Positions 9,621-55,399 of a DNA stretch of 64,000 nucleotides are shown here, piece after piece; the first letter of the stretch is position 1; every line of letters begins with the position of its first letter. The position numbers were made by a program, and so were the translations under genes. The stretch covers positions 62,001-126,000 of the forward strand of contig NZ_JAHLDU010000004.1 of the NCBI RefSeq assembly GCF_018861905.1, in the 5' to 3' direction. The notes beneath the pieces are model-generated. The model made no database searches. It worked only from the letters and a program-made list of their open reading frames with translations, and was not told the origin of the DNA. The DNA is from Clostridium sp. DSM 17811 (lineage in GTDB: Bacteria; Bacillota; Clostridia; Clostridiales; Clostridiaceae).

Positions 9621-9640
9621 AATGTATTTATACATCATTA

Positions 9641-9725
9641 CCGCTTTCCTCCGCTGGTATTATCCAGATCAGGTATAAGGGTCAATGAATTAATATTCAT
9701 ATCTCAGCCATAAGGCACCCCTAGC
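9641..9725 (-). promoter_or_regulatory. TPP riboswitch (THI element) controlling thiT
   Basis: The minus strand carries the conserved THI-box blocks: GGGGTGCC, CTGAGA, then ACCTGATCTGGATAATACC and GCGGAGGAAAG. It sits about 100 nt upstream of thiT with a terminator between. TPP binding is expected to switch the gene off. Confidence 0.97.
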
Positions 9726-9895
9726 ACATATTATTATTTAATTATATAACAGTATATTACAATTTACAAGTAATTTTATGTATTTAGTATAAGGGACGCC
9801 TATGTAAGTAAACAAAGGCAGGTTTGCAATTTAATACACAGAGTGTTATTGTATAAGTGTTCTAGGTGAATTTTAAAATTAGGAAATATTTTGTT

Positions 9896-15183: not shown

Positions 15184-15293
15184 TCCTTATCTTTCAGATT
15201 TTACAATCTGATGGAATTGACACCATTGCATTTCGCTATAAATGCTGGTTGTCGGGTATCATCGGGCCAGTCCCTCTACCTCTCTTGATAAGT
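15184..15293 (-). promoter_or_regulatory. SAM-I riboswitch (S box) controlling metY-metA
   Basis: The minus strand starts CTTATCAAGAGAGGTAGAGG, the S-box hallmark, followed by GACTGGCCCGATGA and AACC, then closes with GAAAGATAAG, completing P1. Methionine genes follow, as expected for a switch turned off by SAM. Confidence 0.97.
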
Positions 15294-15366
15294 TGTTAGT
15301 GATTAGTATATGGTTCATAAAAGTAAATGTCAATCGTTTTTTTGTTTTAATTTCAATTGATGCACT

Positions 15367-15916: not shown

Positions 15917-15941
15917 TAATTTATATTTTAAATATAGCCAT

Positions 15942-16041
15942 CTTATCTTTCAAGAATAAATTTGCTGAAATTGGCACAGTATTCTAAAAGAACCCGCTGC
16001 CGAGGCTTCATTGGGTCAGTCCCTCTACCTCTCTTGATAAG
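15942..16041 (-). promoter_or_regulatory. Second SAM-I riboswitch, upstream of the YbaK-family gene
   Basis: Minus strand begins CTTATCAAGAGAGGTAGAGG, then GACTGACCCAATGAAGCC and CGGCA, and ends TGAAAGATAAGA. All S-box core blocks are present. The only gene between it and the next leader is the YbaK-family gene, 117 nt downstream of the aptamer. Confidence 0.96.
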
Positions 16042-16264
16042 TGTTTTCGTATTAAGTTGTTAAAGATATGATAAAGCTTTTATTGAATATTGTCAATAGT
16101 CCAAAAATAATTATATACAATAATATGTACAGAAATGAAACAAATTGATAATTATAAATTAGATAAAAAGCAAATGTAATATTATAACAAATAAGTCGTT
16201 CTCAGGGTAACCAAACAATGGAAATAGAATAATATAAAGTATAAATATTATTTTGGAGGTACTT
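16042..16264. other. Divergent intergenic region
   Basis: Promoter region of the second SAM-riboswitch transcript (minus) and of the methionine-rich protein gene (plus). I see no further ORF or RNA. Confidence 0.4.
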
Positions 16265-28314: not shown

Positions 28315-28348
28315 CCCTATAAAACTTTTGTTTTATAGGGCTTTTTTT
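28315..28348 (+). terminator. Intrinsic terminator of the zinc-ribbon gene
   Basis: 10-bp perfect arms CCCTATAAAA/TTTTATAGGG and T7. Confidence 0.92.
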
Positions 28349-28382: not shown

Positions 28383-28440
28383 AAATAAGAGCACTAGCCC
28401 CTTACTGTGTAACAGTAAGGGGCTAGTGCTCTTATTTTTT
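28383..28440. repeat. 25-bp perfect inverted repeat with 5-nt loop, no gene attached
   Basis: Arms 28383-28407 and 28413-28437 (AGAGCACTAGCCCCTTACTG core), loop TGTAA, then a T run. It looks like a very strong terminator but follows another terminator by only 35 nt with no gene in between. Confidence 0.9.
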
Positions 28441-28640
28441 AAGTTGTGAAGCTTATTTAATTACTACATACTTGATATAGCTATTATAGGAGTAGCCGTA
28501 CATTTAAAATTAACATAGAAAAAACAAAGTGGATATTTTAGATTAAATAAGAGAAACTATGTAATATAAAAATCATAATTGAGGTATCAATATATAATTC
28601 ACAATCTGTCTATCTATAAGAAAAGGACATGGTGATTGCA
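28441..28640. other. Upstream region of the germination operon
   Basis: AT-rich. A sigma-G promoter is expected here on general grounds, but I could not pick a convincing match by eye. Confidence 0.3.
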
Positions 28641-30122
28641 ATGGAAAATGGAGATTTAAATGGAAATATAGATTTAATTAGGAATGGGTTAGGCAAGCAA
28701 AGTCCTATAGTGGTAAAGCATTTTTATATTGGAAGTGATCAGCCTTTAGAAGCTGCGATTATCTATGTAAATGGAATTGCGAACAAGGATATTATTGATA
28801 GAGATATATTGAATCCTCTGATGATTCATATAGGAGAAAATTTAAATGGGAGGGCGAATATAGGAGAGTATCTTTGTAAAAGATATATTTCTATGAGCAA
28901 TACATTAATAGAATCAGATGTAAATGGGGTCGTTGATCATCTCAAAAGAGGAAAAACAGCAGTCTTAATAAATGGCGATTTGGAAGTAATAATAGCTGAC
29001 ACTGCAGGTGGAGTACAACGTGCTATTATGGAGCCTATGAATGAAACAGCAGCAAAAGGTCCAAGAGATGGTTTTGTAGAGAATTTAGAAGTGAATATCA
29101 GCCTTATTCGAAGAAAAGTCAAGGATAAGAATCTCACAATTGAGTTATTTAATTTAGGAAGTCGATTGCAGAGTGATTTGGCAATAGTTTATATAGATGA
29201 TATAGTGGATAAACATGTATTGGAAGAATTAAAAAAGAGAATAGAAGCTATTGACGTAGATGCCGTACTTTCAGCGGGAAAGCTTGAGCAATATATTGAA
29301 GACTATCCCTATACGGTTTTTCCACAAGCCTATAGCACAGAAAGACCAGATAGAGCCATTGGAAATATGCTAGAAGGAAGAATAGTTATTATTGTAGAAG
29401 GAACGCCAATGGTGCTTGTATATCCAGCAATATTCATGCAATTTTTTCAGGCTGTAGAGGATTATACTGAAAGAACAGTTGTATCCTCTTTTGTAAGACT
29501 TCTAAGAATTTTGGCGGCAATTATTGTTATTACCCTACCTTCTATTTATTTAACACTTATAAAGTTTAATGTAGAACTTATACCCATAAAATTTGTCACC
29601 CCCATTGTTCAATCAAGGGTAGGAATTGCCCTAACTCCATTTTTAGAGATTATAGCTATGGAACTAGTTGTGGAGTTTTTACGCGAGGGTGGCTTAAGGC
29701 TACCTACTAAAATTGCTCAAACATTAAGTTTAGTAGGAGGCATTATTATAGGTGATACGGCAATTCAATCTAAAATGGTTAGCCCGACTACCTTACTTAT
29801 AGTGGGGATTACTGTAATTACTACCTTTTTAATACCTAATTATGATATGTCCCTTTCTATTCGAATGTTACGATTTCCAATGCTGGTACTAGCAAATATC
29901 ATGGGCATATTTGGAATTGCAGTGGGTTGGTTTTTAATTTTAGTTCATCTTTCATCTTTAGACAGTCTAGGTGTACCATATTTTGAGTTTCATAAAAGTG
30001 ACATGAAGGATACCTTTATTAGAGCACCGCTTTGGAAGATGAACAAACGGCCAGAGGGAATTCCCAATAGTGACCCAATAAGGCAGACGGATTATAGAAA
30101 CAAGTTTAAGAAAAAAAGGTAG
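28641..30122 (+). CDS. gerKA: Spore germination protein, GerA/GerKA subunit
   Basis: A 493-residue GerA-family protein: soluble N-terminal domain to about 275 with the hallmark GPRDGFVENLEVNISLIRRK, TERPDRAIGNMLEGRIVIIVEGTPMVLVYP, then about five TM helices including PFLEIIAMELVVEFLREGGLRLP and a polar C-terminus. GerA subunits sit in the inner spore membrane, assemble with GerB and GerC and act as germinant-gated channels. The ATG at 28641 has GGTGA 5 nt upstream; an in-frame ATG at 28629 is too close to AAAAGG. It overlaps the next gene and is the only A subunit of the seven-gene operon. Confidence 0.95.
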   Translation: MENGDLNGNIDLIRNGLGKQSPIVVKHFYIGSDQPLEAAIIYVNGIANKDIIDRDILNPLMIHIGENLNGRANIGEYLCKRYISMSNTLIESDVNGVVDHLKRGKTAVLINGDLEVIIADTAGGVQRAIMEPMNETAAKGPRDGFVENLEVNISLIRRKVKDKNLTIELFNLGSRLQSDLAIVYIDDIVDKHVLEELKKRIEAIDVDAVLSAGKLEQYIEDYPYTVFPQAYSTERPDRAIGNMLEGRIVIIVEGTPMVLVYPAIFMQFFQAVEDYTERTVVSSFVRLLRILAAIIVITLPSIYLTLIKFNVELIPIKFVTPIVQSRVGIALTPFLEIIAMELVVEFLREGGLRLPTKIAQTLSLVGGIIIGDTAIQSKMVSPTTLLIVGITVITTFLIPNYDMSLSIRMLRFPMLVLANIMGIFGIAVGWFLILVHLSSLDSLGVPYFEFHKSDMKDTFIRAPLWKMNKRPEGIPNSDPIRQTDYRNKFKKKR

Positions 30123-31225
30123 TGGATAAAATGCAGAGAAACTCTGGTAAAAAACAAAGCTACTTAACGGTAAGTCAGTTTGCCCTTATTATCTTTGGTA
30201 GCATCGTTGGAGTGGGTGTTTTATCACTTCCAAATGGTGTAGTAAAAGCTGCTCATCAGGATGGATGGATTTCCACTTTAATTGGTGGAATATATCCATT
30301 ATATGTTGTAAGTATAGCCAACTATATAAGTGGAAAATTTCATAATGATAACATACTAATTTTGAGTAAAAAGTATTTTGGTGAAATTATTGGAAGTAGC
30401 TTTAATTTAATCTTTGCTACTTATTTTATTTTTATAACATCGATGAATGCTTGTTATTATAGTAACTTAATGCGAAATTATATGATGGGATTTTTAACCC
30501 CTTTTAAACTTATAGCTATCCTAGTTATCTGTATTATTTATGCGGTTTCAAGAGGCTTAAAAGTAATAGGAAGAATAAGTGAAATTTCTTTTTACGTTAC
30601 AATCATTCTTCTTTTATCACCTATAATAGCTTTACGATCTCCGAACATGACAAATATTTATCCTGTATTTGGCTCTGGTTTTAGTTCAATAGCAAAGGGG
30701 GCTATAAAATCAAGTTTTGCTTATGGAGGAGCGGAAATAATCCTACTTATTTATCCGTTTCTAAAAGAGAAAAAGAAGATTCTTAAATCTTCGCTTATAA
30801 GTGTGACTATAGCTATTGTTATTTATGTTTGGTGCGTTTTTATAACTATATATTATTTAGGACCAGATATTGTGAACAAAAATTTTTGGTCATTTTTGGT
30901 GGTTACAGAAACTATAACCGTATCAGTAATCAATAATTATAGATACATTTTTATGACATTTTGGAGTTTAGTAGCATTTAAAAGTATGAGCATTAACTGT
31001 TATGCAAGTATATATATTTTAAAAGAGTTTGCACATAAAATAGAGACTAAAAATATTTATTTTTTAATCTTTCCAATAATTGTATATTTATCTCTGAAGT
31101 TTGGTAATGAAATAAGTAGGCAAAATATTAACGATATTATTTTACCCGGGTTTATCATATTTAATTTATTATATATGACATCTATTGCTATATTTATATC
31201 TTTTAAGGGAGGAGATAGAGCTTGA
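30122..31225 (+). CDS. Spore germination permease GerB-type, first copy
   Basis: A 367-residue APC-fold membrane protein of the GerAB/GerKB family. It starts with LTVSQFALIIFGSIVGVGVLSLPNGVVKAAHQDGWIS, the family signature, and has ten hydrophobic segments; SSFAYGGAEIILLIYPFLKEKKK is the conserved middle helix. GerB subunits are thought to bind the germinant. It overlaps gerKA by 1 nt (GTG start; ATG 30131 is possible) and the following GerC gene by 4 nt. Confidence 0.94.
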   Translation: MDKMQRNSGKKQSYLTVSQFALIIFGSIVGVGVLSLPNGVVKAAHQDGWISTLIGGIYPLYVVSIANYISGKFHNDNILILSKKYFGEIIGSSFNLIFATYFIFITSMNACYYSNLMRNYMMGFLTPFKLIAILVICIIYAVSRGLKVIGRISEISFYVTIILLLSPIIALRSPNMTNIYPVFGSGFSSIAKGAIKSSFAYGGAEIILLIYPFLKEKKKILKSSLISVTIAIVIYVWCVFITIYYLGPDIVNKNFWSFLVVTETITVSVINNYRYIFMTFWSLVAFKSMSINCYASIYILKEFAHKIETKNIYFLIFPIIVYLSLKFGNEISRQNINDIILPGFIIFNLLYMTSIAIFISFKGGDRA

Positions 31226-32334
31226 ATAAAAAAAAATACTTCATCATAATAATTGGTGTTTTTATTTATGTATTTATTATGCTTGATCAAGACCGGGTAC
31301 CTATTGAGGAGATAGTGACTATTAATGGCATTGGGTATGATATAGAAAGAAAAAGTGAAGGCAACATTGAATATAGTATACCTATTAATACAAATGTTTA
31401 TAAGGCAAGTGGTAAGCAAGCGAATTTGTTATTTAATGAGCAAGGTCAAAATTTAGGGGAAGTAACTCAGAAAAGGCAAGAAAAGATGGATAAAAAATTT
31501 GTACAGGGGCAAGAAAGGGTTGTTTTTGTCAGCCAGGATTATGCAAGGTATGGTTTAAAAACTTTGATAGATGATAGATTTAGAAATCCACAAACGAACA
31601 ATATGGCCTATATGGTAGTATGCAAAGGGAAAGCAGAGGATTATTTAAGGTACCAAGAAAAAGGTTATAGTAACTCTTCAGAATATGTAGGGGGGCTTGT
31701 AGAATCTTATGGCAATTATAGTTTTTTTTCTAATAACTACAAGTTAATAGATGCGTATGTGAGGATTGGAGCTGAGGGTAGAAGTCTGGTGCTTCCATAT
31801 ATAGAAATAACAGAAGAAGGAATAGAAATCACTGGTGTGGCTATTTTCAATGGAGATAAAATGGTAGAAGTTGTGGATATACAAAAGGGTAAAATACTTA
31901 ATTTGTTAAAAAATGATGATGTAAACGGGATACTAACTTTACAAAAGAGTCCTAAAGAGTTTGTTGATTTTGATGCAAAAACTGGTAAAAGAAAAGTGAA
32001 ATGTTATAAGCATGGAGATAAATACAGTTTCATTATTGATTTAACATTCACAGGTACAATTACTAATAATGAAATGTACGTTGATATGTTAAAGGATATA
32101 AACAAAAAAAAAGAATTTGAAAAAGATATGGAAAAAGATATGGAAAAGCAATGTGTTGATTTTATAAAAATAATGCAGAGTGATTATAAGATGGATTGTA
32201 TTACTCTTGGAAGAGAAGCGGCTGCAAAGTATGGAAGGCAGAAAAATGTAGATTGGAATAAAGTAGTTTCAAATGCAGATATTAAAGTAAATGTGGCGGT
32301 TAATGCAGATTTACAGGGTAGAGGAGATTATTAG
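31222..32334 (+). CDS. Ger(x)C family protein, first copy, no lipobox cysteine
   Basis: A 370-residue GerC-like protein: N-terminal hydrophobic anchor, PIEEIVTINGIGYDIE domain start, LVLPYIEITEEGIEITGVAIFNGDKMV in the middle and a C-terminal GerC domain ending AAKYGRQKNVDWNKVVSNADIKVNV. Typical GerC subunits are lipoproteins with Cys just before a D-R/W-D-R segment; here the matching place reads IMLDQDRVPIEE, without cysteine. It would be membrane-anchored by an uncleaved helix. GGGAGGAG lies upstream; start overlaps gerB by 4 nt. Confidence 0.9.
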   Translation: MNKKKYFIIIIGVFIYVFIMLDQDRVPIEEIVTINGIGYDIERKSEGNIEYSIPINTNVYKASGKQANLLFNEQGQNLGEVTQKRQEKMDKKFVQGQERVVFVSQDYARYGLKTLIDDRFRNPQTNNMAYMVVCKGKAEDYLRYQEKGYSNSSEYVGGLVESYGNYSFFSNNYKLIDAYVRIGAEGRSLVLPYIEITEEGIEITGVAIFNGDKMVEVVDIQKGKILNLLKNDDVNGILTLQKSPKEFVDFDAKTGKRKVKCYKHGDKYSFIIDLTFTGTITNNEMYVDMLKDINKKKEFEKDMEKDMEKQCVDFIKIMQSDYKMDCITLGREAAAKYGRQKNVDWNKVVSNADIKVNVAVNADLQGRGDY

Positions 32335-32336
32335 GT

Positions 32337-33425
32337 ATGCGGATAGAAAAGAAAAATCTACTAACTCCAAATGAAGTAACTTTTATATTAATAGGAATTA
32401 TGCTTGATGTAACGGCTACGAGTTTACCTAATGGGGGAATAGATATTGCAAAACAGGATGAGTGGATTTCTGTAATAATAGGGGCTTTATATCCCTTATA
32501 TGTAGCTATCTTAGCTGTATATGTAAGTGGAAAATACCCTAAGGATAATATTTTAGTGCTTAGTAAAAGATACCTGGGAAAGACATTTGGGAGCATATTA
32601 AATGTTCTTTTTTTACTAAGTTTTTTTAGCTTTTTTCCACCATTAATTACAACAATCATGTTAATTGTAAGAACGGAAGCATCCCCTATTTTAACTCCTT
32701 TTAAAATTTATGTAGTTTTATTATTTATAGGAGTATACGCTGCTGGCCTTGGAATTAAAGTGCTGGGAAGGACATGTGCTATCACCTTTTGGATGGTGCT
32801 AGGGGTAATTATCCCTACCATTTCTATTTTAAAACAAGGAAGTTATTTAAATATAAGTCCTGTATTTGGGGCAGGAATTGTAAATATCTTAAAAGGTAGC
32901 GTTTACTCTGCTTATGATTACTCATTAATGGAGATTATATTTTTAATTTATCCCTTTATAAACGATAGTAGCAAGATAAGGAGTTCCACTTTAAAGGCAG
33001 TAGGATTTACTGCTATTATATATACATGGATTACTTTTATAACCATATATTATATGGGAAAAGATATTATTCATAAAACAATATGGAGTTTTTTTGGAGT
33101 TACATCGGCAGTAAAGGTTGAAGTAATAAATAATTTTAAATATATTTTCATATTTTTTTGGATAATTATAGCAATTAAATCTGTCGCTATTTTTAATTAC
33201 GTGTGTTTGGTTTTCTTAAATGATTTTAAGAAAATAAAAAATAAAAAATTAATATATGTTGTTATAGCTGTTTTGGTTATTATCATTACAAACACCTATT
33301 ATTCGGATAAGTTAGCGATGGAGAAAATTATAAAATATACCCTTCCAATCAGCGTTATTTACAATTTAATATATATAACCCTCATCACCAGTTTAATATG
33401 GATAAAAAAAGGATGGGCAAAATGA
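32337..33425 (+). CDS. Spore germination permease GerB-type, second copy
   Basis: A 362-residue paralogue of the GerB subunit: LTPNEVTFILIGIMLDVTATSLPNGGIDIAKQDEWISVIIGALYPLYV at the start and SVYSAYDYSLMEIIFLIYPFINDSSKIR in the centre. The first helix differs from copy one (no GVGVLSLP), so the ligand pocket has probably diverged. It starts 2 nt after the first GerC gene and ends with a 4-nt overlap into the second. Confidence 0.92.
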   Translation: MRIEKKNLLTPNEVTFILIGIMLDVTATSLPNGGIDIAKQDEWISVIIGALYPLYVAILAVYVSGKYPKDNILVLSKRYLGKTFGSILNVLFLLSFFSFFPPLITTIMLIVRTEASPILTPFKIYVVLLFIGVYAAGLGIKVLGRTCAITFWMVLGVIIPTISILKQGSYLNISPVFGAGIVNILKGSVYSAYDYSLMEIIFLIYPFINDSSKIRSSTLKAVGFTAIIYTWITFITIYYMGKDIIHKTIWSFFGVTSAVKVEVINNFKYIFIFFWIIIAIKSVAIFNYVCLVFLNDFKKIKNKKLIYVVIAVLVIIITNTYYSDKLAMEKIIKYTLPISVIYNLIYITLITSLIWIKKGWAK

Positions 33426-34543
33426 AAAAATATATGAATATAATATTGAATGTTTTTTTATGTAGTACTTTAATTATGGTTATTTTTGGAGGTGAAAAAA
33501 ACAAAACACATAGTGTGGAGGATTTAGGTATTTCTGTGGGTGTAGGAATTGGAATAAATAAAAATGGTGAAGGGAATATAATATATAGGGTCTCTACCAA
33601 TGCTAATGAATATAAAGAAGACGGCACTGTTGAAACACTATTAGGTACTGGAATAGGTAGCACTATTGGGAAAACAAGAGAGAATAGACAAAAAAAAACA
33701 GGAAAAGATTTTTTTTTAGGACTATCAAAGATTTATATAGTAGATGAAGAATATGCTAAATATGGAATAAGAGATTTAATAGATGTTAATTTTAAGAACT
33801 CTGTGGTTAATGACAATGCATTTTTAGTTGTATGCAAAGGTAGGAATGAAGATTATCTTAAGTATACTTCCACAGGTTATGATAATTCAGCAGAGTATAT
33901 AAGCGATATGATTAAAAACTCAGTAAACTATAATTTTTTTAAGGAAGATTACATGGTTAAGGATGCATTTTTATCAATAGATGCAGAGGGCAAAAATGTT
34001 GTTAGTCCATATATTGAAATAATGGAAGATGGAATTAAAATAAAAGGTATGGCAGTTTTTAACAAGGATAAGCTAGCTGTTATTTTGGATACAAAGGATA
34101 CAAAAATAATGAATATGCTTAGAGAAAATAAAGTAAAGGGCATATTAACCATACAAAAGAATTCAAAAGAATATGTGAATTATTCAGCGGAATCTAAAAG
34201 AAAGATTACATGTAAAAAAATAGACGGCAAATATACTTTTATTATTGACTTGGATTTGAAAGGAGAAATTGTTAACAATGGGTTATATGAAGGTATGACA
34301 GTAAAGACAGAGCCCATTCAAAAATTTGAGGATGACATGTCAAAACAAGTGGAAAATATGTGTATTGGATTTTTGGATAAGATGAAGAAAGAGTATAAGG
34401 TAGACTTACTGCAACTAGGATGGGTGGCTACTGCGAAATATGGAAGAGACACAGGAGTAGACTGGAATGAGGTTGTCTCTAACTCTGAGATTAAAGTAAA
34501 TGTAAAGGTACATGTTGATAAATTAGGAAGAGGACAGTATTAA
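33422..34543 (+). CDS. Ger(x)C family protein, second copy, no lipobox cysteine
   Basis: A 373-residue paralogue with the same domain order: anchor helix, SVEDLGISVGVGIGINK, VVSPYIEIMEDGIKIKGMAVFNKDK and AKYGRDTGVDWNEVVSNSEIKVNV. The only cysteine near the anchor is inside the helix (FLCSTLIM), not at a +1 lipobox position; the exit reads IFGGEKNK. The ATG at 33422 forms a coupled stop-start with the permease; in-frame ATGs at 33398 and 33413 lie inside the permease gene. Confidence 0.9.
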   Translation: MKKYMNIILNVFLCSTLIMVIFGGEKNKTHSVEDLGISVGVGIGINKNGEGNIIYRVSTNANEYKEDGTVETLLGTGIGSTIGKTRENRQKKTGKDFFLGLSKIYIVDEEYAKYGIRDLIDVNFKNSVVNDNAFLVVCKGRNEDYLKYTSTGYDNSAEYISDMIKNSVNYNFFKEDYMVKDAFLSIDAEGKNVVSPYIEIMEDGIKIKGMAVFNKDKLAVILDTKDTKIMNMLRENKVKGILTIQKNSKEYVNYSAESKRKITCKKIDGKYTFIIDLDLKGEIVNNGLYEGMTVKTEPIQKFEDDMSKQVENMCIGFLDKMKKEYKVDLLQLGWVATAKYGRDTGVDWNEVVSNSEIKVNVKVHVDKLGRGQY

Positions 34544-34578
34544 ATATAGCTAAGTAAGAAAAAATAGAAGGTGACACT

Positions 34579-35736
34579 TTGAAAAAGAAAAAAATAATAA
34601 TTGTGTTGTTAGTGGTAAGTATAGTTTCTATTTATGCAGAAAAATTGCAAGTAAGCCCTGTGGAGGATTTAAATATAACAGCAGGTGTTGGGTATGATAT
34701 TAATAAAGGTCTAAATGGTGAGGTGGAATATAGAGTTCCTATTACTATATACGATTTTAAAACTAAGGGAAAAGAAGGTGCAGGCAGTTCTATTAAAAAT
34801 TCAACTAAAATTATAAAAGGTAGTGATGTAAGTAGTAGTATTATAAAAACAAAGGCAAATACCATTGCAGAAATAAGGCAACAAAGACAATTAAATGCAA
34901 GTAAACCTTTTACAATTGGAACTCCGAAAATAACTATAATAGGTGAAGAACAGGCATTTTATGGGATAAAAAACATTGTAAATATATTGTTTTTTAATGC
35001 AAATGGTAATGATAAAGTTATATTTGCAGTTGGTAAAGGGAAGGCAGAAGATATATTAAGGGTTAAGGTAGATGGGTATCCTAGTGCGGCAGATTATATG
35101 GAGGGTATTGTTAGACATGGAACAAACTATAATTTTTTCAACACTGAATATAATTTATTGAATATATATGTTACATTGGATTCAGAAGGCAAAAATTTAG
35201 TACTGCCATATCTAGAAATAAAGGATAAAAATATTGCGATTACTGGAATGGCATTATTTAAAGGAGATAAAATGGCTTATGTACTACCTATGGAGGAAGG
35301 CAAAATTATGAATATGCTTAGGGAGAAAAATGGGAAGGGAATATTAAGTTTGCAGGAAAGTCCAGATAAGTATATAAATTATGATGCAACGGTTAAAAGG
35401 AAGGTAAAATGTAATAAAATAAAAGGCAAATATGAATTCATCATTGATTTAGAATTTCAGGGTGACATTATAGAGAATACATTATATAAATCTATGAAAA
35501 AAGAAAGTGAAAAAGAATTTGAAGAACTCATTTCAAAAAAAATAGAAATGAAATGTTATGATTTTTTATGCAAAATGAAAAATAGTTATAAAATAGATTG
35601 CTTAAATTTAGGAATGTATGCTGCGGCCAAATATGGCAGAGAATCTGGTGTAGATTGGAATGATGAGGTAAGCAATGCAGATATTAAAGTAAATGTAGTG
35701 GTGAACATTGATAAGATTGGAATAGGTCAGTATTAA
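34579..35736 (+). CDS. Ger(x)C family protein, third copy, no lipobox cysteine
   Basis: A 385-residue paralogue starting at TTG with GAAGGTGA upstream. Anchor helix IIIVLLVVSIVSIYAEKLQVSPVEDLNITAGVGYDI has no cysteine. The middle LVLPYLEIKDKNIAITGMALFKGDKMAY and the end AAKYGRESGVDWNDEVSNADIKVNV match copies one and two. A Ser/Lys-rich insert of about 30 residues (GSSIKNSTKIIKGSDVSSS) after the first strand pair makes it the longest copy. It follows copy two by 35 nt with no permease between them. Confidence 0.9.
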   Translation: MKKKKIIIVLLVVSIVSIYAEKLQVSPVEDLNITAGVGYDINKGLNGEVEYRVPITIYDFKTKGKEGAGSSIKNSTKIIKGSDVSSSIIKTKANTIAEIRQQRQLNASKPFTIGTPKITIIGEEQAFYGIKNIVNILFFNANGNDKVIFAVGKGKAEDILRVKVDGYPSAADYMEGIVRHGTNYNFFNTEYNLLNIYVTLDSEGKNLVLPYLEIKDKNIAITGMALFKGDKMAYVLPMEEGKIMNMLREKNGKGILSLQESPDKYINYDATVKRKVKCNKIKGKYEFIIDLEFQGDIIENTLYKSMKKESEKEFEELISKKIEMKCYDFLCKMKNSYKIDCLNLGMYAAAKYGRESGVDWNDEVSNADIKVNVVVNIDKIGIGQY

Positions 35737-35757
35737 AGTATATGGGGAGTAAATAAG

Positions 35758-36843
35758 ATGGATAAAGTAAAAAAAAACTTCTTAGAAGAGAGCGAAACTA
35801 TAGCAATTTTAGTAGGTTTTATAATTGGAATAAATATTTTAGCATTACCTAGTGAGGTAGTACAGGATGCAAAGCAGGCTGGTTGGATATCGGTGATAGT
35901 TGGTGGACTGTATCCGCTATATATGGCTTTATTATCAATTTATTATGCAAAAAAACATCCCAATCAGAATATATTGACCTTAAGTAATATATATTTAGGA
36001 AGGATACTCGGAATTATTTGTAATATTTTATTTATGGCTGAATTTGGTCTATTTACAATAGTTACTATTGTTGGCTTAGCTAATATTTTTAGAGTGCATG
36101 CAACAGCTTTTTTAACACCAATAAAAATTTTTATTCCTACCATACTATTAGCTATTTATTTAAGTAATAAAGGGATAAAAGTATTAGTAAGAATCAATAA
36201 AATTTCGCTATATATTATAGTGACAATAACAATGCTATTAGTAATATCACTGAAAAGTGGAGATTATTTAAATCTTTTCCCTATATTCGGACCAGGAATT
36301 AAAAATATTTTTAGTGGTAGCATTCAATCAGTTTTTGCCTATAGCGGAATAGAAGCCATATTTTTATTTTATCCAGTTTTGAAAGAAAAAAACAAAATAA
36401 AAAAGATAACTTTGAAAGCGTTATTTATTACTATGTCAATTTATGTTTGGATTACATTTATATGTATATATTCTTTAGGATATAAGGTTACATCTATTGC
36501 TTTATGGCCGGTTTTATTAGTAGCAGGAGGGATAGACATACCAATACTAATTAACTTTAGATTCTTATTTTTATTTTTATGGAGTATCGTGATGTTTATG
36601 ATTATAGCAAATGAGAATTATGCGTTTGCTTATATTCTAAGTTATATATGTAAAATAAAAGATAAAAAGAAAATATATTGGTTTATATTTCCGGTTACTC
36701 TCCTTTTATGCACCATTATTAAAAATGAAGTGCAAAGAAGAGCTTTAATTGGGTATATTGTTCCTAAAATAGTTTTATTTAATATAACGTACATATCTAT
36801 TATTGCCATATTGATATTTATAAAAGACAAAGGTCGAAAGTAA
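35758..36843 (+). CDS. Spore germination permease GerB-type, third copy
   Basis: A 361-residue GerB paralogue: ILVGFIIGINILALPSEVVQDAKQAGWISVIVGGLYPLYM and SVFAYSGIEAIFLFYPVLKEKNKIK. It is the last gene of the operon, 21 nt after the third GerC gene, with GGGAGT upstream of its ATG. With three B and three C subunits but one A, the receptors probably exchange partners around the single GerA protein. Confidence 0.92.
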   Translation: MDKVKKNFLEESETIAILVGFIIGINILALPSEVVQDAKQAGWISVIVGGLYPLYMALLSIYYAKKHPNQNILTLSNIYLGRILGIICNILFMAEFGLFTIVTIVGLANIFRVHATAFLTPIKIFIPTILLAIYLSNKGIKVLVRINKISLYIIVTITMLLVISLKSGDYLNLFPIFGPGIKNIFSGSIQSVFAYSGIEAIFLFYPVLKEKNKIKKITLKALFITMSIYVWITFICIYSLGYKVTSIALWPVLLVAGGIDIPILINFRFLFLFLWSIVMFMIIANENYAFAYILSYICKIKDKKKIYWFIFPVTLLLCTIIKNEVQRRALIGYIVPKIVLFNITYISIIAILIFIKDKGRK

Positions 36844-37043: not shown

Positions 37044-37769
37044 ATGCCTTTTAATGTATACAGTAAAAACGGAGAATATTTAGGATTCATTCAATCTGCA
37101 TATCCGCAATATACTAATGTATTTATGGTTGCGAGTACAGATATTAAACTTACGGAGAAGGACTTTAATATAAATAAAATAAAATCTGAGTTAGCAAGTT
37201 TTCTGGGATGTAAAAGTATTTTAGGGAAAATTAATGAGCAAAGATTAAGTAAAAGCATAGAGAATATAATAATTAAAGAATTCAAGAAATTCAAAGATAA
37301 TACCTATGAGGAATTATTAAAACTAGTATATCTTAGAATAATGCGTTCTGAAGAAAACTTTAATTATAAAAAATTAGATATAACACAAATAAATGCATAT
37401 TTTTTAGTGGATATTAATAATGCTATAATTGAAAATGATTCAATAATTATAGATGAAGAGATAGATTATATTTGTAATAAAAAAATAGAAAATCTAATTC
37501 CTATTGTTGCTAAAATAACTGATTATCCGGTAATACAAATTGATAGTCTAATGTCAGGGCAAGGGTTGTTATTAGGGGCAGACCTTGCTGATTTGGTAGG
37601 AAGAAGCCATATACATAGGACAAAATTAAAAATAAAATCAGGGAACTTTGCATATGAACTTAATTTGCCTGTAGAGTTATATATAAAAATAGGCGATGTA
37701 ATTGAGATGTATGTAAGTAACAGAGTTGTTAAAAGAATATTTTGCGATGGTATAATATATGAGTTTTAA
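37044..37769 (+). CDS. Hypothetical protein, 241 residues
   Basis: A soluble protein with no signal peptide or TM segment. The middle (about 65-160) is helical and Lys/Ile/Glu-rich. The C-terminal third, from ADLADLVGRSHIHRTKLKIKSGNFAYELNLPVELYIKIGDVIEMYVSN, reads as a compact beta-rich domain. I do not recognise the family. TTGGAGG precedes the ATG. The next gene starts 41 nt later on the same strand, so they may be cotranscribed. Confidence 0.65.
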   Translation: MPFNVYSKNGEYLGFIQSAYPQYTNVFMVASTDIKLTEKDFNINKIKSELASFLGCKSILGKINEQRLSKSIENIIIKEFKKFKDNTYEELLKLVYLRIMRSEENFNYKKLDITQINAYFLVDINNAIIENDSIIIDEEIDYICNKKIENLIPIVAKITDYPVIQIDSLMSGQGLLLGADLADLVGRSHIHRTKLKIKSGNFAYELNLPVELYIKIGDVIEMYVSNRVVKRIFCDGIIYEF

Positions 37770-55094: not shown

Positions 55095-55399
55095 GTTAAA
55101 TGTAAAGACTAAGATGAGAAGAGTAGATATAAAAGGTAGTTTTAGCGATTTGGTGACGGTGAGAGACCAATACGAGATTTATATTGAAAAACATCTCTGA
55201 GTTTCTAACCGAAATCATTAGAGAGTAGGCTTAGACGGGTCCAATCCGTTAATGGTTGGGTAGTATCAAATTATAATTCGAAACATTGAATACATAATTT
55301 TGTACTAATTAGAGTGGTCATATTTTATGACAAATTGGGTGGTATCGCGAAATTATAGTTTTTCGTCCCTTTATTATTATGGGAAGAAAGGCTTTTTTT
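55095..55399 (+). promoter_or_regulatory. T-box leader (Asn-specific) controlling asnS
   Basis: Stem I region from about 55095, a candidate specifier AAC at 55207-55209 (asparagine codon), then the conserved T-box GGGTGGTATCGCG at 55337-55349 and a terminator (arms 55357-55369 with 55381-55393, then T7). Uncharged tRNA(Asn) should pair with the T-box and permit read-through into asnS. Confidence 0.95.

Follow-up and report, generated by a model that had tools for sequence, protein, structure and literature searches.

In the window, i.e. the whole stretch of 64,000 nucleotides (nt) of Clostridium sp. DSM 17811 that was analysed (assembly GCF_018861905.1, contig NZ_JAHLDU010000004.1, positions 62,001 to 126,000), seven consecutive open reading frames on the + strand (28641-36843) are arranged as A-B-C-B-C-C-B and encode a single GerA together with three GerB and three GerC proteins, each of full length. 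On balance we consider it probable that these genes constitute a working nutrient germinant-receptor operon of the form A(BC)3, in which several diverged B-C modules would share one GerA. The order and the composition had been proposed earlier from the letters alone, and the full-length matches to the Pfam profiles bear them out. The genes are the following, with pocket positions given in GerAB numbering:

28641..30122, + strand: gerA, the single A subunit (PF03323, 532.8 bits, profile positions 3-465 of 466)
30122..31225, + strand: gerB1, APC-type sensor subunit (PF03845, 220.7 bits; pocket G25, G27 and G200)
31222..32334, + strand: gerC1, start codon TTG (PF25198 and PF05504; N-terminus without cysteine)
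32337..33425, + strand: gerB2, APC-type subunit (PF03845, 163.6 bits; D25 and L200 replace the helix-breaking glycines)
33422..34543, + strand: gerC2, start at ATG 33422 or 33398 (PF05504 and PF25198)
34579..35736, + strand: gerC3, start codon TTG (PF05504 and PF25198; N-terminus without cysteine)
35758..36843, + strand: gerB3, APC-type subunit (PF03845, 183.6 bits; G25 and G200 kept)

All three B proteins exceed the cut-offs of both PF03845 and TIGR00912 and all three C proteins exceed both Pfam cut-offs, while the NCBIfam model TIGR02887 is passed by C1 and C2 and narrowly missed by C3 (155 versus 163.25 bits). A sequence search of the PDB recovered 6o59 and 9prb as relatives of the N-terminal domain of GerA, and the same search with C1 found no relatives. 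The copies inside the operon are indeed clearly different from each other, as had been claimed: the identity is 38% in all three B-B pairs and 43-45% between the C proteins. The genes are all adjacent and co-directional, as in gerA-type receptor operons. Overlaps occur at three junctions (A/B1, 1 nt; B1/C1, 4 nt; B2/C2, 4 nt with ATG 33422 and 28 nt with ATG 33398), and not at four as the sequence-only reading had it; the other three junctions are gaps (C1/B2, 2 nt; C2/C3, 35 nt; C3/B3, 21 nt). Purine-rich stretches that resemble ribosome-binding sites precede the gene starts. With respect to gerA itself, the alignment identifies ATG 28641, the start assumed before, as better than ATG 28629, because the former is conserved in all 12 aligned sequences (the window and 11 congeners), unlike the latter.

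Distribution and history of the seven-gene layout

The census of the family comprised the GerA proteins that match the window GerA at E-values up to 1e-150, i.e. 93 places in 65 of the 206 family genomes, where duplicate copies of one genome were counted once (16 GerA-identical pairs) and where the gene orders of the 92 places outside the window were read with profile hidden Markov models. The search for the same order that had been suggested for this operon thus yielded A-B-C-B-C-C-B in 16 of the 206 genomes, of which 12 belong to the genus (17 genomes covered) and four do not, and also in Fervidicella metallireducens (locus L053), which makes 17 species in all, with one GerA per operon throughout. 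In 15 of these species all seven genes are open. Of the 119 genes, 117 are uninterrupted frames longer than 280 residues; the two exceptions are the C1 of C. muellerianum (L034) and the B2 of one metagenome-assembled genome (L037), both of which are split. Each of the 11 congener loci checked has at least two of eight flanking genes in common with the window; in the five carrier species outside the genus none of the eight genes checked was shared, save for a weak match of an ABC-F protein in L035. Directly upstream of the operon of C. bowmanii lies a partial gerA-like frame on the opposite strand (L029:9154-9966).

Most other places of the census have the plain order A-B-C; the remaining orders are A-B-C-B-C, A-B-C-C-B, A-B-C-C, A-B-C-B, A-B-C-B-B(-B) and A-C-B-B. 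Including the more distant families described below, two B and two C genes per A occur in L039-L042, L078, L085, L086, L088, L142, L153 and L156, and three of each, outside the seven-gene layout, in L150, L151 and L154. One place (L083, A-B-C-B-B-B) has four B genes and one C. Five others (L109, L110, L112, L113 and L115) are A-B pairs of the same GerA family, in which no GerC was found within the fetched stretch.

The history of the copies was followed in careful trees, one of 54 B proteins and one of 50 C proteins, for which seven species with the layout were sampled, and in a quick GerA tree of 88 rows, from which copies, some short-contig loci and more distant GerA genes were left out (the two C1 pieces of L034 and the 125-residue B2 piece of L037 were omitted from trees and rates). 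The trees that the earlier reading had called for show that position and not species determines how the B and C copies cluster: the seven species come together in a supported clade for each of B2, B3, C1 and C2, the B1 clade covers six of the seven, and the C3 proteins of all seven lie on one side of a weakly supported branch (73/92). Because the copies group by position and the GerA proteins of all 17 species form one clade in the quick tree, a single origin of the set, followed by its retention, is most likely. All seven genes are under purifying selection, with ratios of nonsynonymous to synonymous substitution rates (dN/dS) of 0.08-0.43 in 69 gene-by-species-pair values and of 0.09-0.17 for GerA.

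The deeper relationships are less firm. In the best B tree the B2 proteins of the seven-gene layout join the first B of the A-B-C-B-C operons (69/88) and the B3 proteins join the second (53/65), and neither grouping is supported. In the approximately unbiased (AU) test one clade of all seven B1 was not rejected (p-AU 0.474), and neither was the grouping of C2 with the first C of the A-B-C-B-C operons (p-AU 0.225). L142 shows an independent duplication of a B-C unit, whose copies are sisters at 100/99 in both the B and the C tree.

The window also carries the trace of an exchange:

34600..36735, + strand: recombined cassette with nearly all of C3 and B3 (sliding identity, informative sites)

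This cassette (coordinates approximate) follows C. lacusfryxellense at 88-93% DNA identity. The window follows its closest relatives, the genomes G003 and G006, with 92-98% identity from A up to mid-C2 and with 95-97% identity beyond B3; a second, short C. lacusfryxellense-like tract (about 34160-34450) lies near the end of C2. Both C3 and B3 of the window are sisters of those in L031 with 100/100 support, and the sliding identity and the informative sites indicate that the two genes were exchanged together.

Similar sets exist at a larger distance. A sample of 119 genomes of the phylum was searched for GerC matches, and among the matches listed at least four tandem places were picked by eye; the families of two of the four tandem-GerC places were then searched. 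One of the places, in another family, reads B-C-A-B-C-B-C (L150), and two genera of one other family both have A-B-C-C-B-C-B (L151 and L154), with 332 and 653 nt between the open frames after the second C, so that the latter sets are perhaps two transcripts each. Smaller sets are L156 (A-B-C-B-C) and L153 (B-A-C-C-B). The GerA proteins of these distant families are only 32-36% identical to that of the window (33-36% for L150, L151 and L154), and the accompanying B and C proteins do not join the groups of the window. For L150 and L156 the quick B and C trees pair the same adjacent genes, and B and C were therefore copied together.

The window genome itself (5.19 Mb) encodes six GerA, ten clear GerB (with two further weak matches) and eight GerC proteins plus one GerC fragment. 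The five other gerA genes each have their own B and C nearby, in the order A-B-C on contigs C16 and C13, A-C-B on C12 and at C4:170k, and A-C with a divergent B on C1. Two gerB genes are orphans (G000:C16:33832-34761, L013; G000:C37:5221-6150, L014), in that the genome searches placed neither a GerA nor a GerC match next to them. The fragment (G000:C14:30336-30572, L027) lies in an 82-residue open frame, and its match is interrupted by a stop. The closest named relatives found are the cold-living clostridia C. tagluense, C. bowmanii, C. frigoris and C. lacusfryxellense, and the genome probably belongs to the group of C. estertheticum, for which lactate has been cited as germinant (PMC7476324).

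Sensing pockets of the B proteins and N-termini of the C proteins

The position numbering in the pocket alignments rests on a reference sequence that we take to be that of GerAB, and B proteins of at most 280 residues were left out of the count, so that the split B genes of L044, L067 and L143 are absent from it. Germination depends on residues G25 and G200 of GerAB, which according to predictions interrupt helices 1 and 6 at the ligand pocket; the G25A variant still assembles (PMC8617281). Among the 17 species, B1 has both glycines without exception, and B3 has G25 in 12 and G200 in all. In B2, G25 is present in three species and G200 in one; aspartate occupies position 25 in 13 of them and leucine position 200 in 14. 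Both positions are other than glycine in 13/17 B2 proteins versus 2/144 other B proteins, counts that share ancestry and are not independent. Because both helix-breaking pocket glycines are lost, B2 most likely recognizes a different ligand or serves as a partner that does not sense but sets a threshold. In five A-B-C-B-C operons (L039-L042 and L078) the first B likewise is without G25 and the second keeps both glycines, so that a regular and an altered sensor may be combined in one operon; in the independent case of L142, G25 is kept in both B proteins.

The C proteins also deviate, albeit at their N-termini. Within the first 45 residues no cysteine was found in any of the 11 C1 rows, nor in 11 of the 12 C3 rows (L037 has one). 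C2 has a cysteine there in 11/12 rows (within FLC in nine), which does not sit in what we take to be the usual lipobox. The lipobox cysteine that characterizes the GerC lipoprotein of gerA-type receptors was thus not found.

Upstream region, transcription and neighbourhood

Upstream of gerA three features were noted:

28532..28560, + strand: conserved block GATATTTTAGAT..AAGAGAAACTAT, possible promoter, some 80 nt ahead of gerA (seen in the aligned upstream regions of 12 sequences)
28388..28432, no strand assigned: hairpin with a perfect stem of 20 base pairs followed by a T run, likely terminator
28315-28340: strong terminator-like hairpin upstream of gerA

The block of about 29 nt is largely conserved across the window and the 11 congeners and may be a promoter. 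To read it as a forespore (sigma F/G) promoter would be to rely on a consensus that we presume. A scan of 106 upstream regions, the window excluded, with patterns that we take to be sigma F/G-like gave no match in the A-B-C-B-C-C-B operons; overall 7 and 6 of the 106 regions matched, versus about 2.2% and 1.4% of random stretches. The hairpin at 28388-28432, a single copy in the genome at up to three mismatches, sits between the upstream genes and gerA and is likely a terminator that separates the operon from those genes. Inside the operon the scan of the + strand for terminator-like hairpins returned no strong one and two weak ones, at 32800 and 32996. Because strong hairpins of this kind lie upstream and none lies within, the seven genes are likely transcribed as one unit; the single transcript that had been asserted earlier on the basis of the junctions therefore agrees with the short junctions and the lack of a strong internal hairpin, and is to be taken as likely.

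Just downstream (37044-37769) a protein of 241 amino acids is encoded, which is present in 10 of the 11 congener loci checked and has no match in Pfam or NCBIfam. Rfam matches in the window comprise a TPP riboswitch (9629-9732), two SAM riboswitches (15184-15294 and 15940-16043) and a T-box leader (55102-55373).

Probable sharing of one GerA by three B-C modules, and the alternatives

In the reading that we favour, a single GerA is made together with three diverged B-C modules, namely B1C1, B2C2 and C3B3. GerA would, according to current models, be an oligomeric ion channel in the spore inner membrane, each B an APC-fold ligand subunit and each C the outer partner of its B. All modules would attach to that one GerA, with a given channel carrying a single kind of module or a mixture within its ring, and one type of channel would then open in response to several nutrients, or else only to a combination of them. 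The available models predict a pentamer or hexamer of A that is ringed by B with C on the outside (PMC11841064, PMC13170314); with one GerA gene and three B-C modules this would therefore imply three receptors drawn from one pool of A, or mixed rings. The existence of B-C modules as such is supported by the joint duplication of B and C (L142, L150/L156) and by the joint exchange of C3 and B3 in the window. The idea of a combinatorial set on a single GerA, put forward in the sequence-only reading, has thereby been sharpened to B-C modules with a B2 that is distinct at the sensing site, although covariation did not bring out the pairing of B with C.

The latter is one of several observations that weigh against the favoured reading. 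Distance covariation, computed for sets of 9, 12, 14 and 16 taxa from the residuals of a regression on GerA, did not favour the pairing 1-1, 2-2, 3-3, which ranked second or third of six. With 12 taxa the mean residual correlation was 0.53 for this pairing versus 0.58 for a swapped one, and neighbours that are no pairs correlated equally well; as a proof of pairing the method was dropped, since it does not discriminate. Ordinary homologous exchange could account for the single recombination tract. B and C are unequal in number in the multi-C operon L103 (A-B-C-C), L152 reads A-C-C followed by overlapping B-like frames, and the orphan gerB genes at C16:33832 and C37:5221 show that B genes can stand alone. 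In four of the 17 species B2 does not have the Asp/Leu combination. With respect to the origin of the extra modules, one clade of B1, B2 and B3 together was not rejected (p-AU 0.105).

Comparison with known systems shows what is shared and what is not. As in B. subtilis GerA (GerAA, GerAB, GerAC), the same three families are present with an A-B-C start, together with an APC-type pocket in B and a channel of A that is predicted to be surrounded by B and C (PMC8617281, PMC11841064). Unlike that system, the window operon has three B and three C per A, its C1 and C3 are without N-terminal cysteine and its B2 is without the two pocket glycines. It goes too far to say that established gerA-type operons hold a single A, a single B and a single C: clusters with additional B genes are described for gerX2 of C. 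botulinum Group I and C. sporogenes (ABABCB, BABCB, ABCB) and for gerX4 of Group III (ACxBBB) (PMC4161481, PMC5083711). These clusters have a single C, one gerC with two or three gerB being the mark of the multi-B gerX2 type, whereas in the window C is multiplied as well and equals B in number (three of each), in accordance with an A(BC)n architecture of one A with equal numbers, above one, of B and C. In Bacillus megaterium different B subunits can exchange on GerUA and GerUC. The receptor in which GerVB is the B subunit beside GerUA and GerUC (PMC4661057) has one C, where here each extra B has a C. The heteromeric amino-acid transporters (SLC7 with SLC3) also combine an APC-fold subunit with a dedicated outer partner; the comparison with GerB-GerC, made in PMC8617281, is an analogy only. 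Several B genes per cluster have thus been published already, and several C genes, and equal numbers of B and C, are what is new; in the open-access literature searched, with subscription papers mostly outside the search, no title or opening abstract was found that reports multiple gerC genes within an operon.

The plainest form of the shared-GerA explanation, to which we give a real but less than even chance, is that three separate homogeneous receptors (A+B1C1, A+B2C2 and A+B3C3) compete for one GerA pool and never mix, and act as an OR gate that broadens the nutrient range. The same gene facts fit, multi-B clusters are discussed in such terms (PMC5083711), and a B. megaterium gerU construct with gerUA, gerUC and gerVB has been used (PMC4661057). 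Nevertheless, homogeneous receptors account neither for the absence of both pocket glycines from B2 in 13/17 species nor for the tripling of C, given that elsewhere a single C serves several B (ABCBBB in L083, ACBB in L079). We are more doubtful about a further-reaching proposal, that of heteromeric ligand-gated channels, in which different B-C modules would surround one GerA ring with B2 as a pseudo-sensor (gate or threshold), and in which this A(BC)n architecture would have arisen several times independently; taken as a whole it is rather unlikely. If it were true, a spore would need a set combination of nutrients to open its single channel.

Improbable is the notion that the extra B and C proteins serve a GerA encoded elsewhere and are placed here for co-expression only. 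The genome does have five further gerA genes, and cooperation between receptors has been reported (GerI and GerQ, PMC13170314). All five, however, have their own adjacent B and C, and the positions of the extra genes are fixed beside this GerA across 17 species. Even less credible is gene dosage or decay, i.e. redundant duplicates on their way to loss: the split C1 of C. muellerianum and the split B2 of L037 point in that direction, whereas the open frames of 117/119 genes, a dN/dS of at most 0.43 and paralogues that are only 38-45% identical and form positional clades largely refute it, and the window holds no decayed copy. An assembly artefact that strung several operons together has a negligible chance and is refuted, since the order, found in a draft of 98 contigs in the window genome, recurs in assemblies of few contigs (G003 and G121 with two, G006 with four) as well as in the other assemblies; of these, G003 and G006 have gerA orthologues 96% identical to that of the window.

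How spores combine nutrient signals is the wider question, for which an operon with one channel and three sensor pairs is a natural test case: it allows one to ask which B responds to which nutrient, whether two kinds of B occur in one channel, and whether a C is matched to its B. It also bears on a question raised in a survey of 2016, namely why extra copies of gerXA or gerXC do not appear (PMC5083711): in other clostridia, extra gerC genes do appear. The carriers of the layout include C. tagluense, which is among the species that spoil chilled vacuum-packed meat (PMC7476324), and knowledge of its germinants would be of practical use there. If the shared-channel reading is true, spores of these clostridia may read several nutrients through one GerA channel.

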